Of a stretch of 64,000 nt of DNA, positions 6,294 through 35,108 are shown piece after piece. The notes under the pieces were generated by a model that was given only the letters and a program-made list of their open reading frames with translations, had not been told where the DNA came from and made no database searches. The stretch is from Frankia alni ACN14a. Its GTDB lineage: Bacteria > Actinomycetota > Actinomycetes > Frankiales > Frankiaceae. Made by a program: the position numbers and the translations under genes. The stretch is from positions 434,001-498,000 of the forward strand of contig NC_008278.1 in assembly GCF_000058485.1 (NCBI RefSeq), in the 5' to 3' direction. Positions within the stretch are counted from its first letter, which is position 1, and each line of letters starts with the position of its first letter.

Positions 6294-6857
6294 TCAGCGC
6301 GGGGTGGACGGCGCGTCGGCGCGATCCGGCGCGACGGCGCCGACATCCACCGTCCGGACGGGCGTCGACGAGACCTCTGCGGACCACGAGCGAATGATCG
6401 CCTGGGTCAACCGACAGGTCATCAGGACCCGGTTCTCGCCGGAGCCGAAGTAGTCCACTTCCTTGGAGGTTCGATGGAAACCGAGGCTTTCGTAGAGATT
6501 GGTCGCCACGATGTTCTCCTCGCGGACGGCCAGTCGCACGTGCTGAATGCCGTGCTCGAACAGCAGCGTCAACGCGTCGCAGGCGAGTCGGCGCCCGATG
6601 CGGTGCCCGCGAAGCCCCGGGACGACCCCAAGGCCCTGGAACCAGCCGATATCCGACGTACGTGACGTCATGGTCAGGGAGTAGCCGCAGAGCCTGCCGT
6701 CGATGCGCGCGACGAGGATCTCCCCGGAATGCGCGTCGAAGAGCTGCCGGAGAGCGAAGTACGGGTACGCCAGCTCGCCGAAGACCTCCCGGTCGACCGC
6801 GTGCAGAGGAAGGAGATCCTCTCTCTCGACCAAGCGCACTTCGAGCCGCGACTCCAC
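6294..6857 (-). CDS. GNAT family N-acetyltransferase
   Basis: Predicted acetyl-CoA-dependent N-acetyltransferase of 187 residues. The acetyl-CoA-binding signature is QGLGVVPGLRGHRIGRRL, followed by LAVREENIVATNLYESLGF, which is typical of RimI-like GNAT enzymes; the acceptor is unknown. I chose the GTG at 6857 because GGAGG lies eight bases upstream and the fold begins immediately after. An in-frame ATG at 6941 would add 28 residues without a ribosome binding site. The C-terminal 40 residues beyond the GNAT fold are Ala/Pro/Arg-rich and probably unstructured. It may be co-transcribed with the neighbouring cluster, since it lies upstream on the same strand across a 262-bp gap (6032–6293). Confidence 0.78.
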   Translation of the reverse strand: MESRLEVRLVEREDLLPLHAVDREVFGELAYPYFALRQLFDAHSGEILVARIDGRLCGYSLTMTSRTSDIGWFQGLGVVPGLRGHRIGRRLACDALTLLFEHGIQHVRLAVREENIVATNLYESLGFHRTSKEVDYFGSGENRVLMTCRLTQAIIRSWSAEVSSTPVRTVDVGAVAPDRADAPSTPR

Positions 6858-7288
6858 TGTGAATCCCTCCAGCACCGCCGGGACGGCCTCGACAACACTG
6901 TCCGCTCCCGAATCGGCGCCGCGAGGTCGCACGAGCGGCATGGCCGGTCGGCAGTGTCGAGCCGGACACGCCGGGGACGAGACGGAGCCTCGGGCTCCAT
7001 CCCCCGGGCATTCGAAGACTACCGCGCCCGTGGTGCCTCGGCGTCGGAGCATGGGCGGAGACACCCGTCGCTGGTCCCGCAGGAAAGACCATGGTTCACA
7101 TGATGCGACAATGAGGGCGCTTACGTGGAGGACTGGTGGTTTTTTGCTTTGCACTTAGATGTGTGTGATGCTGCCGCGGTGCCCCGCTGTGTGGGGGGAG
7201 ACCTGTCTCCCGGTGCGATTGATGTGGTTACCAGGTCATGGTGGGCTGGCCATGCTGCCGTGCCGGGGTGCAGCGCCTGTCGGTCGGC
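6858..7288. other. Intergenic stretch without a recognised gene
   Basis: Between two GNAT genes on the same strand. The portion 7100–7260 is noticeably less GC-rich than the surroundings and probably contains the promoter of the downstream acetyltransferase gene, but I see no convincing −35/−10 pair. The open frame of that gene continues into this stretch without a good start signal. Nothing else is supported here. Confidence 0.4.
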
Positions 7289-7966
7289 TCAGCGCTCGCG
7301 CGGCGGCAGGAAGCGGTACATGACGTAGAGGTCGACGTTGCCAAGCCAGGGATGGCGGTAGGCGGCGGGTAGCGTGCCGACCTGGCGGAACGCCAGCGAC
7401 CGCCACAGCGAGACCAGCTTCGGGTTCGCCGCGACGACGTGAACCTGCATCGCCTGGTAACCCAGGTCCGTGGCGTAGTCGATCATCTCCTCGGCGGCCT
7501 GGCGGCTGACGCTCTCCCAGTGACCGCCGGCACGCCCACGGGTGGGGGACGCCGGGCCGCCGTAGGGCCCGTGATCCTCGTACGGACCGGCGCCGGCGCG
7601 CGGCCCCCCCTGGTCGATCCGCTTCGGATCGACCAGCAGCATCGCCTGCGCCACGTGGTTGCCGAGGCCCGGCAGGCTCGGCGTCAGCAGCGCGGTCGCG
7701 ACGACGGTCGTCGCGCCCGGGGCCCGGTCCGCCACCTGCGCCACCTGCGCCGCCCCGTCCGCCTCGACCTCCTCCTCCATGACCAGCACCTCGGCAGGCG
7801 GCGGGAGCATCCAGACGGCGCGGGCGGTCTCCTCACCGGTGTCGGGCTCCCAGGGGCAGGTTTCACCCTCGATCACGACGGCCCGCCACACCGGCCAGAT
7901 CCTGTCCCAGTCCTCCTCGGACGCCCGCCGTATGCGCACCTGTCCGATCCTGCCCGTTCGCCGCAT
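7289..7966 (-). CDS. GNAT family N-acetyltransferase with internal Gly/Pro-rich loop
   Basis: Predicted 225-residue acetyltransferase. The N-terminal VRIRRASEEDWDRIWPVW and the C-terminal AMQVHVVAANPKLVSLWRSL then FRQVGTLP correspond to the first strand and to the Asn-containing helix of GNAT proteins. The stretch between them, about residues 118–152, is Gly/Pro/Arg-rich and replaces the usual acetyl-CoA P-loop strand, so the active site may be altered. The ATG at 7966 lacks a clear ribosome binding site. A GTG ten codons downstream, with AGGA upstream, is a credible alternative. It is divergent from the GntR gene. The substrate is unknown. Confidence 0.7.
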   Translation of the reverse strand: MRRTGRIGQVRIRRASEEDWDRIWPVWRAVVIEGETCPWEPDTGEETARAVWMLPPPAEVLVMEEEVEADGAAQVAQVADRAPGATTVVATALLTPSLPGLGNHVAQAMLLVDPKRIDQGGPRAGAGPYEDHGPYGGPASPTRGRAGGHWESVSRQAAEEMIDYATDLGYQAMQVHVVAANPKLVSLWRSLAFRQVGTLPAAYRHPWLGNVDLYVMYRFLPPRER

Positions 7967-28398: not shown

Positions 28399-28869
28399 TC
28401 ACCCGGCGGGGTCGCCGTCCTCCAGGTAGACGGGCAGGTGCGGGGCGGCCAGGCAGGCGGCGATCCGGCGGGCCAGCCGAGCCGCGGCCCGCTCGGCGAC
28501 CTCGGCGGCTGTGCAGTACCGGGCCGAGCGGATCTCCTCGGCCTGTAGCGCGAGCGCGTCCACCGGGATCGGCGGACCGTCCACAGCGAACAGGAACCGC
28601 AGCGCGTCCGCCCGGCGCGGGGTGGCGGCGAGATGATCGACGCAGATCAGCCGCCCGACCGGCAGGTCGAGCCCGAGCTCCTCGCCCAGCTCGCGCTGCG
28701 CGGTCTGGCGCGGGGACTCGCCGGGCTCGGCGATCCCGCCGGGGACCTCCCAGTTCGGCTTGTACGTCGGCTCCACCAGCAGCACGCGCCCGGCGGCGTC
28801 GCGCAGCAGGCAGCCGGCCGCCACCGCCTTCCTCGACCGGGCCACGACGTCGTCGAGCAGCGCTGTCAT
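28399..28869 (-). CDS. NUDIX hydrolase
   Basis: Small NUDIX pyrophosphatase of 156 residues. The NUDIX box (GX5EX7REUXEEXGU) is GGIAEPGESPRQTAQRELGE followed by ELGL, with all metal-binding Glu residues present. The N-terminus KAVAAGCLLRDAAGRVLLVE is the usual first strand. Its ATG overlaps the stop codon of the ABC exporter gene (ATGA), so it is translationally coupled to it and is the last gene of the peptide/hairpin/exporter operon. Substrates in this family range from nucleotides to ADP-ribose. The link to the exporter is unexplained, but coupling argues it is functional. Confidence 0.88.
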   Translation of the reverse strand: MTALLDDVVARSRKAVAAGCLLRDAAGRVLLVEPTYKPNWEVPGGIAEPGESPRQTAQRELGEELGLDLPVGRLICVDHLAATPRRADALRFLFAVDGPPIPVDALALQAEEIRSARYCTAAEVAERAAARLARRIAACLAAPHLPVYLEDGDPAG

Positions 28870-30662
28870 GGCCGCACGTTACCGGTGATGGTCAGGCCAT
28901 CCGGCCCGAACAGGGACTCGCTGGCCGGCCGGGCCAGCCGGCCGCGGTCGAGGACGACGAGGTGGTCGGCGCGGGCCGCCAGCCGCAGGTCGTGGGTGAT
29001 CACCAGGACGGTCCGGTCGGCGGCGAGCCGGCGCAGGGTGCGCAGCAGCGGCTCGGCCGCGGTGTCGTCGAGCCCCGCCGTCGGCTCGTCGAGGACCAGG
29101 ACGGGGGAGTCGCGCAGCAGCCCCCGCGCGAGCGTGACCCGCCGTCGCTGGCCGCCGGACAGCCGCCGGCCGCTCTGCCCGAGCGGCGTGTCGTAACCGT
29201 CGGGCAGCCGGGCGGCGAACCCGTCCACCCCGGCGGCCCGCGCGGCGGCGGCCACACGCGCGGGGTCGGCGTCCGGCTCGCCCCAGGCGATGTTCTCCCA
29301 CAGCGTCCCGTCGACGAGCGGGCTGTCCTGGGCCACCACGGTCACGGCGCGGCGCAGCGAGGCCAGGGTCACGCGGCGCAGGTCGTGCCCGTCAAGCAGG
29401 ATCCGTCCGGCCGACGGGTCGTGCAGGCGAGTCAGCAGCCTGGTCACCGTCGACTTCCCGGCGCCGCTGCCGCCGGTAAGCACCGTCAGCTCGCTGGGGC
29501 GCAGGGCGAACGAGACGCCGTCCAGCGCCGGCCCGAGCGCGTCCGGATAGGTCAGGTGCACGTGCTCGAACCGGAGATGGCCACGGACGCGCCCCAGCGG
29601 TCGGGCGTCCGGAGCGTCGGCCACCTCGGCGGGGTGGTCGAGCACCTCGGCGATCCGCTCCCCGGCGGCCACCGCCGAGCCGACCGCCACGACGAGCTCA
29701 CCGAGCTCCTGCAGCGGGCCGTACAGGTAGCCGAGAAAGCCGGCGAAGGACAGCAGGCCGCCGACGGTCAGCCGCCCAGTGGCGATCTCCCAGCTGCCCA
29801 CGCCGAGGACGGCCAGCACGAAGACGGTCTCCAGCAGGCTGGCCAGCACGGCGTTCGCCGCAGCGAGCCGGTGGGCGGCGAACCGGGCGTCGCGCCAGGC
29901 GGCACCGTGGTGGCGCAGCCGGCGCAGCTCGTGGGCCGCCATCCCGTGGGTCTGAACCAGGGCGCTGGCCGCGATGTTCTCCTCGGCGACGGCGGCGATG
30001 CGGCCCTCGGCGGCCCGCTCGGCGTGCGACACCGCCCGCACCCGGCCCGCTAGCCGGCGGGTGAGCAGCCAGTGCAGCGGCGCCGCCGCGCAGGCCAGCA
30101 GCGCGAGCTCCCAGCACAGGACGAAGGCGGCCGTGGTGAAGCACACCACGCCGCAGCCGGTGGTGACGGCCTGGACCAGACCGGTGCCGACGAGCTCGTC
30201 GACGGCGTCCACGTCCGAGCCGAACCGGGTCAGCAGGTCGCCGGCCGGCCGCTGGGCGAAGAAGGTCGGCGAGAGCACGTGCAGGCGGGCGAGCATCGCC
30301 TCGCGCAGCCGTCCCAGCAACCGTCCTGACGCCCTCGCCTCCAGGAGATGGCCCGCGTAGCCGCACATGCCGCCGGCGATGGCGACGGCCAGCCACACCG
30401 CCGCCGGGGCACAGAACTCCCGGGGGGAACCCTGGACGAGCGCCCGGTCGGTGAGCCGGCCGAAGAGCCACACCGTGACCGTCTCCGCGGCCGTGCCGGC
30501 GAGCAGCAGCGCCGCCGCGCCGAGCAGCACACCGCGCTCGGGACGGACCAGGGGACGCAGCCGGCGCACCACCCGGCGGGTCGCGGCGGACCCGCCGCCT
30601 GCCACGGTCGACCCGCCGCCTGCCACGGTCGACCCGTCGCGTGCGGCGTGTCGCGCCGGCAT
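28866..30662 (-). CDS. ABC exporter, fused membrane and ATPase domains
   Basis: Half-transporter of 598 residues that should work as a dimer. A six-helix membrane domain covers about residues 40–330, followed by an ATPase domain with Walker A TGGSGAGKST, signature LSGGQRRRVTLARGL, Walker B VLVLDEPT and switch His in VITHD. There is no N-terminal C39 peptidase domain. Residues 12–28 contain the repeat GSTVAGG twice, from a 21–24-bp DNA repeat. The ATG at 30662 has AAAGG eight bases upstream; GTG at 30668 is an alternative. It lies directly downstream of a strong hairpin and a tiny proline-rich peptide gene, so a peptide substrate or peptide-controlled expression is likely. It ends in ATGA overlap with the NUDIX gene. 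Confidence 0.88.
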   Translation of the reverse strand: MPARHAARDGSTVAGGGSTVAGGGSAATRRVVRRLRPLVRPERGVLLGAAALLLAGTAAETVTVWLFGRLTDRALVQGSPREFCAPAAVWLAVAIAGGMCGYAGHLLEARASGRLLGRLREAMLARLHVLSPTFFAQRPAGDLLTRFGSDVDAVDELVGTGLVQAVTTGCGVVCFTTAAFVLCWELALLACAAAPLHWLLTRRLAGRVRAVSHAERAAEGRIAAVAEENIAASALVQTHGMAAHELRRLRHHGAAWRDARFAAHRLAAANAVLASLLETVFVLAVLGVGSWEIATGRLTVGGLLSFAGFLGYLYGPLQELGELVVAVGSAVAAGERIAEVLDHPAEVADAPDARPLGRVRGHLRFEHVHLTYPDALGPALDGVSFALRPSELTVLTGGSGAGKSTVTRLLTRLHDPSAGRILLDGHDLRRVTLASLRRAVTVVAQDSPLVDGTLWENIAWGEPDADPARVAAAARAAGVDGFAARLPDGYDTPLGQSGRRLSGGQRRRVTLARGLLRDSPVLVLDEPTAGLDDTAAEPLLRTLRRLAADRTVLVITHDLRLAARADHLVVLDRGRLARPASESLFGPDGLTITGNVRP

Positions 30663-30685
30663 TCCCACCGCCTTTCCCGGGTCGG

Positions 30686-30717
30686 CCCGGGGTGCGGTGT
30701 CATCACCGCACCCCGGG
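30686..30717 (-). terminator. Perfect 14-bp stem hairpin between peptide gene and ABC exporter gene
   Basis: CCCGGGGTGCGGTG (30686–30699) and CACCGCACCCCGGG (30704–30717) are perfect complements around a four-base loop, TCAT. It starts 18 bases after the peptide stop codon and ends 23 bases before the exporter ATG. No T-run follows, which is usual for GC-rich actinobacteria. It should reduce read-through and stabilise the upstream message, giving much peptide mRNA and little exporter mRNA, or act as an attenuator. Confidence 0.75.
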
Positions 30718-30735
30718 CAGGAATTCGAATCGCTG

Positions 30736-30831
30736 TTACCTGTGTGATGGCTTCCTGGGGAGCGGATGGGGCTGCTGCCGGCGCGGCCTCTTCGGCTTGG
30801 GAGGCAGCGGAAGAATCTTCTTGATCGGCAT
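30736..30831 (-). CDS. 31-residue proline-rich, highly basic peptide (candidate antimicrobial peptide or leader peptide)
   Basis: Starts at ATG 30831 with AAAGGA eight bases upstream and GGAGG a little further; stop TAA at 30736. The product begins MPIKKILPLPPKPKRPRRQQ and ends in PRKPSHR. It has 10 Pro and 10 Lys/Arg plus two His, with no acidic residue and no Cys. This composition is that of proline-rich antimicrobial peptides which target the ribosome, but the LPLPP run could equally stall ribosomes as a regulatory leader. It is followed by a perfect hairpin, then an ABC exporter without a peptidase domain and a NUDIX hydrolase. No modification enzyme is adjacent. The peptide is too short for homology to be decisive; the good ribosome binding site and the layout are the main support. 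Confidence 0.6.
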   Translation of the reverse strand: MPIKKILPLPPKPKRPRRQQPHPLPRKPSHR

Positions 30832-30982
30832 TGTTGAAATCCTTTCCTCCGGGCCGGCGGTATCGCCGACGAATGGACACGCTAGTGGGCTCGCGGGAGA
30901 TCTGGCTGTGGATTTCCTGGGCATTCCTGTGTGTTGCTGTGATGCGGGCATCACATTGGGTGCCCCCGGCTGTCGCCGCCCG

Positions 30983-31050
30983 GACCGCCCGACGACCCCG
31001 ACCGCCCGACGACCCCGACCGCCCGACGATCCTGACCGCCCGACGACCCG
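30983..31050. repeat. Four tandem 17-bp repeats in the 30832–31246 intergenic stretch
   Basis: Four head-to-tail units of GACCGCCCGACGACCCC or close variants start at 30983, 31000, 31017 and 31034. They are followed by the opposite-strand version (GGGCGGTCGGCGG), so the region could fold. The 415-bp stretch separates the divergent peptide operon and the enoyl-CoA hydratase gene and must hold both promoters. No other gene is recognised in it. Confidence 0.75.
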
Positions 31051-31246
31051 GGCGGTCGGCGGCCCGGGCGGTCGGCGACCGGCGTTCCGGCGGGTGCTTC
31101 AGCGTCGCGGGCGGCGGCGGTCGAATGCTGGTAGGCCTGTCTGAGTGCATCCCGCACCGGCGGGACCACGTGGATCCGAGGCGTCTGACCGCGGTACGGA
31201 TGACCGTCGGACGTCTGGCCGCGACGCTCTGTGAACGGAGACGCTG

Positions 31247-33948: not shown

Positions 33949-34097
33949 CTGCCTCCGGCGTCCCGCGGATCAGTTCGCCGGCACGGTTCCTCCCGGCGGT
34001 CGACCCGCCGGCCGAGCCGGCCGAGCCGGGCGAGGGCACGGCACCGGGGCGCGGCATACCGTGAACGTGCGTGCGGCTTGTACTGGAGGATGCTGCT

Positions 34098-35108
34098 GTG
34101 ACTGACTTCGGGCTGGTTCGGCCGCCTGTGCTGGCGGGGGCCGCCCTACTGCGGGACGAGCCGCTGCGGCAGGACACCGGGCGGCAGAAGGAGGGCTGGG
34201 CGTCGGCTCGGGTCGTCCTCGTCGACGAGGAGGGCCGCAGCCCCGTGCGGTGGGGGCCGCGGGTCGAAGGACTCGGCATCGGTGCGGTCTCCGGCGTTGA
34301 CGACGCGGACGCCGGCCCTCGGCTGTGGACGCGGGCGGCGACGGAGATCGCCGGTTCGCCGCCGCCGGACGCGCTGCTGCTCGGCGAGGCCGACGGGGTC
34401 GCGTACTGGGCGGTGCGCGGTGGCGCGGACCAGGTGGCGGCCGGCGACGACGGGGTCCGGTGGCTCACCCTGTTCTCGGTCGGCGCGGAGCTCGGCGCGC
34501 GCGACGCGGCGCTGCTGGCGGCGGCGGTCGCCCTGCTGAACTGGCACGGCCGAGCCCTGTTCTGCGCCCGCGACGGCTCGCCGACCCGGCTGGCCAACGC
34601 CGGCTGGGCACGCGTCTGCGAGGCGCAGCACCACGAGGAGTACCCGCGGACGGACCCGGCGGTGATCTGCCTGGTGCACGACGGCGCGGATCGGATGCTG
34701 CTCGGCCGGCACCGGGCCTGGCCGGCGGGGCGGTTCTCGGTGCTGGCCGGCTTCGTCGAGGCGGGCGAGTCGCTGGAGGCGTGCGTGGCGCGCGAGATCG
34801 GCGAGGAGGTCGGGCTCGACGTCACCGACATCCGCTACCTCGGCAGCCAGGCCTGGCCGTTCCCGCGGTCGCTGATGCTCGGCTTCCACGCGGTGGCCGA
34901 TCCCGCCCAGCCGCTGCGCCTGGACGAGGCGGAGATCAGCGAGGCGGTGTGGGTGACCCGCGACGAGGTACGGCAGGCTCTGGCCCGCGGCGACGACTGG
35001 GCCGTCGCGGACGACGCGCCTGCGACCGACTCCCCGCCCCCGATCCGCCTGCCTGGCCGGATGTCCATCGCCCGCACCATGATCGACTCCTGGTCCGCCG
35101 CCGGCTGA
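34098..35108 (+). CDS. nudC: NAD(H) diphosphatase, NudC type
   Basis: NUDIX hydrolase of 336 residues, expected to split NAD(H) to NMN(H) and AMP or to remove NAD caps from RNA. The NUDIX box is GFVEAGESLEACVAREIGEE followed by VGL. The NudC-specific downstream motif is SQAWPFPRSLM (usually SQPWPFPxS). The zinc ribbon is incomplete: FCARDGS and RVCEAQHH retain only two of the four expected Cys, so metal binding may be lost or use His. GTG at 34098 has GGAGGA seven bases upstream. It stands alone, with nothing operon-like around it. Confidence 0.87.
   Translation: MTDFGLVRPPVLAGAALLRDEPLRQDTGRQKEGWASARVVLVDEEGRSPVRWGPRVEGLGIGAVSGVDDADAGPRLWTRAATEIAGSPPPDALLLGEADGVAYWAVRGGADQVAAGDDGVRWLTLFSVGAELGARDAALLAAAVALLNWHGRALFCARDGSPTRLANAGWARVCEAQHHEEYPRTDPAVICLVHDGADRMLLGRHRAWPAGRFSVLAGFVEAGESLEACVAREIGEEVGLDVTDIRYLGSQAWPFPRSLMLGFHAVADPAQPLRLDEAEISEAVWVTRDEVRQALARGDDWAVADDAPATDSPPPIRLPGRMSIARTMIDSWSAAG

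Follow-up and report, generated by a model that had tools for sequence, protein, structure and literature searches.

Short low-complexity peptides encoded before their own ABC exporters suggest an overlooked peptide family in soil actinobacteria

What is the function of a 31-codon gene that lies, with a perfect hairpin in between, in front of an exporter gene? This question is raised by a locus in a 64,000-nucleotide window of the Frankia alni ACN14a genome (contig NC_008278.1, positions 434,001 to 498,000; the genome is a single contig of 7,497,934 bases), where a gene for a proline-rich basic peptide precedes a gene for an ATP-binding cassette (ABC) exporter. The genomic comparison, which followed the exporter instead of a modifying enzyme, suggests a widespread and apparently undescribed family of short repetitive peptides in soil actinobacteria, each encoded before its own membrane pump, and thereby an overlooked class of exported peptides.

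The peptide gene occupies positions 30736-30831 of the window on the minus strand (stop codon at 30738-30736). Its translation, MPIKKILPLPPKPKRPRRQQPHPLPRKPSHR, has 31 residues, including ten prolines and ten lysines or arginines, with no aspartate, glutamate or cysteine. A Shine-Dalgarno (SD) sequence, GGAGGAAAGG, precedes it (30841-30850, minus strand), and the gene is not annotated in the Frankia genome studied. Eighteen bases after its stop codon stands a terminator-like hairpin (30685-30718, minus strand) with a perfect 14-bp stem, in which 30717-30704 pair with 30699-30686; the stem has 15 bp if G30718-C30685 is counted, the loop is ATGA, no T-run follows, and the structure stands out from shuffled sequences at z -3.9. 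The next gene (28866-30662, minus strand) encodes an MsbA-like half-size ABC exporter with the Pfam domains ABC_membrane and ABC_tran, and the Pfam scan of this protein found no peptidase domain, peptidase C39 included. The first-pass annotation of this DNA, made from the sequence alone, had described the peptide gene with its good ribosome-binding site, the hairpin and the peptidase-less exporter, and all three were confirmed. Pfam and NCBIfam matched none of six family peptides at E up to 1, and no known leaderless-bacteriocin family was matched among these models. In a DNA search of the F. alni genome with the operon as query, matches elsewhere were nearly confined to the ATPase stretch.

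Conservation within the genus was assessed by searching 97 related genomes at the DNA level and 13 Frankia genomes with a peptide pattern. The DNA search matched nine of the 97 genomes, two of them (G019 and G095) through short stretches only. The peptide is present in seven of the 13 Frankia genomes with the consensus MPLKKILPPPPKPK, whereas a reversed control pattern had no match in the same 13; the other carriers are AiPa1 (G005), nodulisporulans (G006), torreyi CpI1 (G011), QA3 (G003), gtarii (G002) and R82 (G001). Their alignment has 13 invariant columns, mainly within the consensus, and the tail lengths change in frame. All seven peptide genes precede an orthologous ABC exporter, of which the AiPa1 copy looks broken because it reads as two short ORFs (open reading frames). 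Five genomes (G004, G007, G008, G009 and G010) have neither the peptide pattern nor an exporter at the level of orthology, an absence that is provisional as most of them are drafts. None of the Frankia genomes seen combines the exporter and the downstream NUDIX gene with a missing peptide, a combination that the first-pass annotation had held would speak against its reading; in G012 the contig begins inside the exporter, so that the upstream region lies outside it. The same annotation had proposed to judge the gene by its substitution pattern, and the pooled pairwise ratio of nonsynonymous to synonymous substitution rates (dN/dS) in Frankia is 0.09 in codons 2-11 and 0.40 from codon 12 on (11 of 21 pairs usable). 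Thus, the peptide gene is real, conserved, under selection and bound to the exporter. When the N-terminal pattern was run over a wider contig collection, seven stretches matched, six from Frankia and one from a Muribaculum metagenome-assembled genome that we take to be a chance match.

Outside Frankia, the nearest case is a genome of another genus in the same family (G016), whose exporter is 47% identical to that of Frankia. There, a GTG-started ORF of 36 residues (VTIARKLLPIPPANRRRHCKPPPPKPPRKGALPPKR) comes first, then a perfect 14-bp stem with TTTTTT behind it, by its sequence a textbook terminator, and last the exporter gene; a longer reading of this ORF is not trusted. The exporter query found matches in 24 of 393 genomes of the class at E up to 1e-95, and a query with a clade exporter, at E up to 1e-110, found them in 79 of 295 genomes of one genus (that of G308, presumably Streptomyces), with up to four exporter places per genome. 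Leaving aside Frankia and G016, the comparison covered 105 distinct loci: 89 (30 + 59) from the 118 places listed in this genus, with one locus at a contig end (L215) excluded, and 16 of the 21 loci from the class search, the other five being repeats of places already included.

These loci, in Streptomyces-like and other actinobacteria, typically begin with a small ORF preceded by a ribosome-binding site; a hairpin comes next in most cases, and then a related exporter. In the encoded peptides, a low-complexity tail follows a brief N-terminal motif, which in many cases is MSFxK[ILV]xP. Under a loose rule, an upstream ORF was assigned at 101 of the 105 loci, a few of them doubtfully (L114 and L119 are not trusted); the loci without an ORF are L117, L121, L132 and L146, and the genomes of the last two nonetheless carry pattern matches before the exporter. 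Under a stricter rule (an SD sequence, phenylalanine at position 3-5 and low entropy), 81 of the 105 family loci qualified, against none of 23 loci of other ABC exporters and two of 105 opposite-strand windows; since this rule was built after the sequences had been seen, the counts describe the family and are not a blind test. Peptide genes also occur in plasmid records, namely with a hairpin in Nonomuraea gerenzanensis and with a downstream ORF carrying kinase motifs on Streptomyces nigrescens plasmid SNP1 (L217); at both places no features are annotated, in an incomplete gene table. In the open-licence literature, searched by peptide strings and related themes, no description of the family was found; the Streptomyces-derived peptides L3 (PMC12797237) appear to be unrelated.

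The linkage of peptide and exporter was evaluated by a DNA pattern for MSFxK[ILV]xP[VL], run over the 295 genomes of the presumed Streptomyces genus with exporters ignored. The pattern gave 71 matches in 50 genomes (six matches for a reversed control pattern), and for 69 of the 71 a listed family exporter follows on the same strand within 1.2 kb; in three of these cases it is the interrupted exporter of G525. The remaining two stand before an internally deleted exporter (G632, by reading) and a 35-residue exporter remnant (G553, by tblastn). At least two matches precede 13 of the 52 exporters in this test, which indicates that tandem peptide genes are common in the MSFxK type. Intact peptide genes beside broken or deleted exporters were observed in AiPa1 (L050, about 6440-7710, minus strand), G632 and G553 (L220 and L258), and they suggest that the peptide gene may persist after the pump has gone.

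An exporter tree was built from 111 family exporters, with frames picked by blastp, and eight outgroups; L131 and the broken AiPa1 exporter were dropped. The family forms one clade of 110 tips with support 1.00, L121 falling outside, and the tail composition of the peptides (Pro/Lys, Lys/Ala/Pro, Arg, Gly/Arg or His/Gly/Asp) tracks the exporter subclades. The peptide types are (i) MSFHKIAPVKK...PKRRPVAHKG with Lys/Ala/Pro tails, and relatives (41 tips, support 1.00), (ii) MSFKKLAPLPPKPKSKQLPPPP, close in style to Frankia (19 tips, 1.00), (iii) peptides with Arg or Gly/Arg tails (12 tips, 1.00), (iv) MAIF peptides with mainly His/Gly/Asp tails (14 tips, 0.98), and (v) Frankia with G016 (seven tips, 1.00). 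A number of the His/Gly/Asp tails have no clear positive charge; thus, the shared features are the short N-terminus and low complexity, and not charge. The bacteriocin-like layout that had been proposed for the single F. alni locus therefore recurs across a large exporter clade. Two loci deserve separate mention: in L118, from another family, a related exporter is preceded by two tandem Arg/Trp-rich peptide ORFs that resemble each other at their ends (reverse complement, 926-1066 and 1228-1359), and in L116 the corresponding position in front of a related exporter is taken by an acidic 46-residue ORF rich in Trp, Cys and Asp (MRFFHHLHRWHGW..., 1259-1399), opposite in charge to the Frankia peptide.

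The hairpin and the copy number of the peptide gene are further recurrent features. Hairpin sequences differ among the eight Frankia-type loci, yet seven have z below -2, R82 (-1.1) being the exception; across the family this holds for 82 of 107 loci, compared with four of 23 controls. At 12 loci, two to four whole peptide genes stand in tandem, each with its own SD sequence.

Based on these features, the locus is probably a two-gene cassette for peptide export, with an N-terminal docking segment, an effector tail, a dedicated pump and low read-through into the exporter gene. The promoter and the strong ribosome-binding site would yield abundant peptide, whereas the hairpin after the peptide stop codon would let only a minority of transcripts reach the exporter gene. 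The peptide, lacking a classical leader, would be exported unprocessed: its conserved segment of about nine residues may dock onto the dedicated ABC exporter, its low-complexity, mostly charged tail may be the effector, and the pump, by exporting the peptide, would also shield the producer. A broader generalization, which we put forward tentatively, is that the family forms an unrecognised class of actinobacterial secreted peptides, in which a fixed N-terminal export tag of about nine residues is combined with an interchangeable disordered tail, re-invented clade by clade together with the exporter and phosphorylated by a kinase in one branch.

The kinase was identified in one exporter branch, where flank clustering revealed a kinase-like ORF downstream of the exporter at 19 loci. 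Three members of this cluster match Pkinase in Pfam as a single domain (L250:574-1563, plus strand; L251:899-1873, plus strand; L253:5359-6429, minus strand), and the other 16 were assigned by clustering. The peptides of this branch are distinguished by their tails: the median Ser/Thr fraction of residues is 0.101 in kinase-linked peptides and 0.000 in the others, at least one tail Ser/Thr occurs in 18 of 18 versus 40 of 88, and a TS dipeptide in 14 of 18 versus one of 88. This comparison left out L114, L117, L119, L121 and G016, as well as L132 and L146, which have no ORF; L116, L199 and L210, which belong to the same branch and lie outside the kinase cluster, were counted among the others. 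The co-encoded kinase would probably phosphorylate the tail Ser/Thr residues before export, and the association agrees with a role of the peptide as a modified product. No kinase was found beside the Frankia loci.

The order of small ORF, hairpin and ABC exporter would also be produced by a leader peptide acting in cis, on whose tail (PPPP, poly-basic or Gly-rich) ribosomes stall, so that termination is blocked and a multidrug-type exporter is induced, as by BmrB for BmrCD. The polyproline attenuator that the first-pass annotation had offered as its alternative, with the LPLPP run as the stalling site, is of this kind. The U-tract terminator of G016 speaks for such a mechanism, as does the described precedent of Bacillus subtilis bmrB-bmrCD, which has the order small ORF, terminator and ABC exporter (PMC4191407), with the terminator inside the ORF and an overlapping antiterminator. 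The family differs from this precedent in that its hairpin follows the stop codon, antiterminator pairing is not in excess and one exporter gene replaces the BmrC/BmrD pair. In a crude duplex test of 95 loci, the peptide-coding RNA and the 5' hairpin arm did not pair more than expected (mean z 0.08; four loci below -2, one above 2), and this result, together with the complete tandem genes, argues against a leader-peptide attenuator. The long tails evolve at dN/dS below 1 and have conserved C-terminal ends such as PKRRPVAHKG, the kinase is associated with Ser/Thr-bearing peptides, and to our knowledge no His/Gly tails act as ribosome stallers, all of which counts against the same explanation. 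We thus regard a cis-acting leader peptide as improbable, and the polyproline variant as unsupported.

Outside Frankia, pooled dN/dS values in codons 2-11 and from codon 12 onward are 0.28 and 0.55 for type A (363 pairs), 0.38 and 0.55 for type B (120 pairs), and 0.26 and 0.49 for the His/Gly type (13 pairs); throughout, pairs are non-independent and of middling identity only, and tails are hard to align.

Several observations weigh against the export cassette. The dS of type B is low at the N-terminal start (0.11 versus 0.30), and codons 6-7 of the Frankia peptides, ATT CTT (within 30831-30790 of the window), are kept in seven of seven and six of seven genomes, respectively, even though seven genes of the window use ATT for none of 75 Ile codons and CTT in three of 258 cases. 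Low N-terminal dS and retained rare codons point to some constraint at the RNA level, which the attenuator explains better. In F. gtarii, pairing between the peptide RNA and the hairpin arm is exceptionally strong (z -3.5), and this is the sole one of the eight Frankia-type loci below -2. Only six of 107 loci, and none of the 23 controls, scored positive for a T-run (at least four T within 8 nt) immediately behind the folded stem, so that termination is supported by sequence in few loci and presumed for most. In addition, the N-terminal motif was chosen after the sequences had been seen. The charge of the tails varies, from strongly cationic in some to near-neutral or acidic in others (L116), so that a single simple membrane-killing mechanism does not account for all members. 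In the flanks compared, no cluster of neighbouring genes, for instance of immunity genes, is common to all exporter clades. Finally, the kinase association is confined essentially to one branch, so that the counts are not independent and may reflect a single event. Type B pattern matches, for their part, keep CTT at codon 6.

Close linkage to and congruence with the exporter, and a conserved N-terminus with variable tails, would equally fit a small regulatory subunit, which would remain in the cell as a binding partner of the exporter, gating it or helping it fold, and would not be its cargo. For such a subunit, tandem copies, a wholesale change of tail chemistry between clades and a hairpin favouring excess of peptide over exporter would all be unusual, and we consider this explanation improbable. 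Another possibility retains the export step, and its probability thus overlaps with that of the export cassette: the peptide may be exported for a non-antagonistic purpose, such as a matrix component, a binder of metals or polyanions, or a signal. The tail compositions agree with it (His/Gly/Asp could bind metals, and Lys/Arg/Pro polyanions), as do the kinase in the His/Gly branch and the compared flanks, in which no immunity gene was recognised; we hold it to be rather unlikely.

Among known systems, PH-domain genes are common in leaderless bacteriocin clusters, and the proline-rich antimicrobial peptides include apidaecin and oncocin. The Frankia peptide resembles the latter two in its Pro/Arg/Lys composition, and the RRPHPRPLP stretch of F. 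gtarii presumably resembles the end of apidaecin. The link to such animal-type peptides, drawn by the first-pass annotation, proved to be compositional only: the tail motif is not kept in sister Frankia, the peptide comes from a bacterium and is followed by an exporter gene, and the peptides in front of related exporters have other compositions (Gly/Arg, Arg or His/Gly/Asp). Kinase-tailored lasso peptides may share a cluster with a kinase and an ABC exporter; here, in contrast, the kinase is a single Pkinase domain, and the ORFs listed showed no evident cyclase or leader protease, with no search aimed at either. The absence of a C39 domain in the F. alni exporter sets this locus apart from class II bacteriocins and RiPPs (ribosomally synthesized and post-translationally modified peptides) with a double-glycine leader. 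A short peptide with a peptidase-less exporter recalls leaderless bacteriocins (aureocin A70/AurT, enterocin DD14, and the aureocin A53-like peptides of Actinomycetota), which are short, lack a processed leader, sometimes occur several per cluster and are accompanied by ABC transport genes (PMC8657885, PMC11580447). Unlike them, the family has low-complexity tails, a conserved N-terminal motif and a single-polypeptide exporter behind a hairpin. The conserved N-terminal segment may itself serve as a signal.

If the peptides are exported, antibiotic-producing bacteria and an alder symbiont would hold a large unannotated pool of natural peptides, and the kinase branch may represent a new kind of phosphorylated peptide. 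The N-terminal tag would then be a short, cleavage-free export signal for ABC pumps, and the family would make it possible to test how pumps of a single clade cope with opposite tail chemistries.

The F. alni exporter is, by its domains and its NCBIfam and PDB matches, a half-transporter with a transmembrane domain followed by a nucleotide-binding domain, of the MsbA/ABCB type. It resembles these exporters in domain order and sequence (362 bits to TIGR02203; PDB matches to ABCB and MsbA), and differs from them in scoring below the TIGR02203 cut-off of 602 bits, in forming its own clade and in having a peptide gene upstream at most loci. The listed ORF starts at GTG 30668; ATG 30662 is the likelier start, because the exporters of relatives begin with MPARHA or MSARHA. 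The SD region of the exporter (GGGAAAGG) lies at 30671-30680 on the minus strand.

The adjoining gene for a NUDIX hydrolase (PF00293; 28399-28869, minus strand) overlaps the exporter stop by 4 bp, and the first-pass annotation had placed it in the operon as a partner. The overlap is real, but at three of the seven Frankia peptide loci the next gene is instead one that, from its motif, we take to be threonine aldolase-like, and in G008 the NUDIX gene is kept with neither peptide nor exporter beside it. The NUDIX gene is therefore a mere neighbour and was rejected as a component of the system.

Upstream of the peptide gene, the alignment of Frankia leaders shows a TANCGT box about 50 nt before the ATG in seven of seven genomes (TAGCGT at 30879-30884, minus strand, in F. 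alni), a probable -10 element. The peptide SD sequence and the post-stop hairpin are kept in the same alignment. Just upstream of the SD sequence, the 5' untranslated region forms a 6-bp hairpin, GTCGGC/GCCGGC (30853-30870, minus strand), with compensatory changes in Frankia: 95.2% of 42 alignment cells are paired (at most 54.8% in slid controls), and two of the six pairs are altered on both sides, a covariation score reached by eight of 500 shuffles. The only Rfam match, to mir-143, is due to chance (19.1 bits, gathering threshold 60). Short tandem G+C-rich repeats (cgggcggtcggggtcgt) lie at about 30985-31070, upstream of the peptide promoter. A second NUDIX-type protein, presumably NADH-pyrophosphatase-like from its motif, is encoded at 34071-35108 on the plus strand of the window and is present at the loci of sister Frankia as well.

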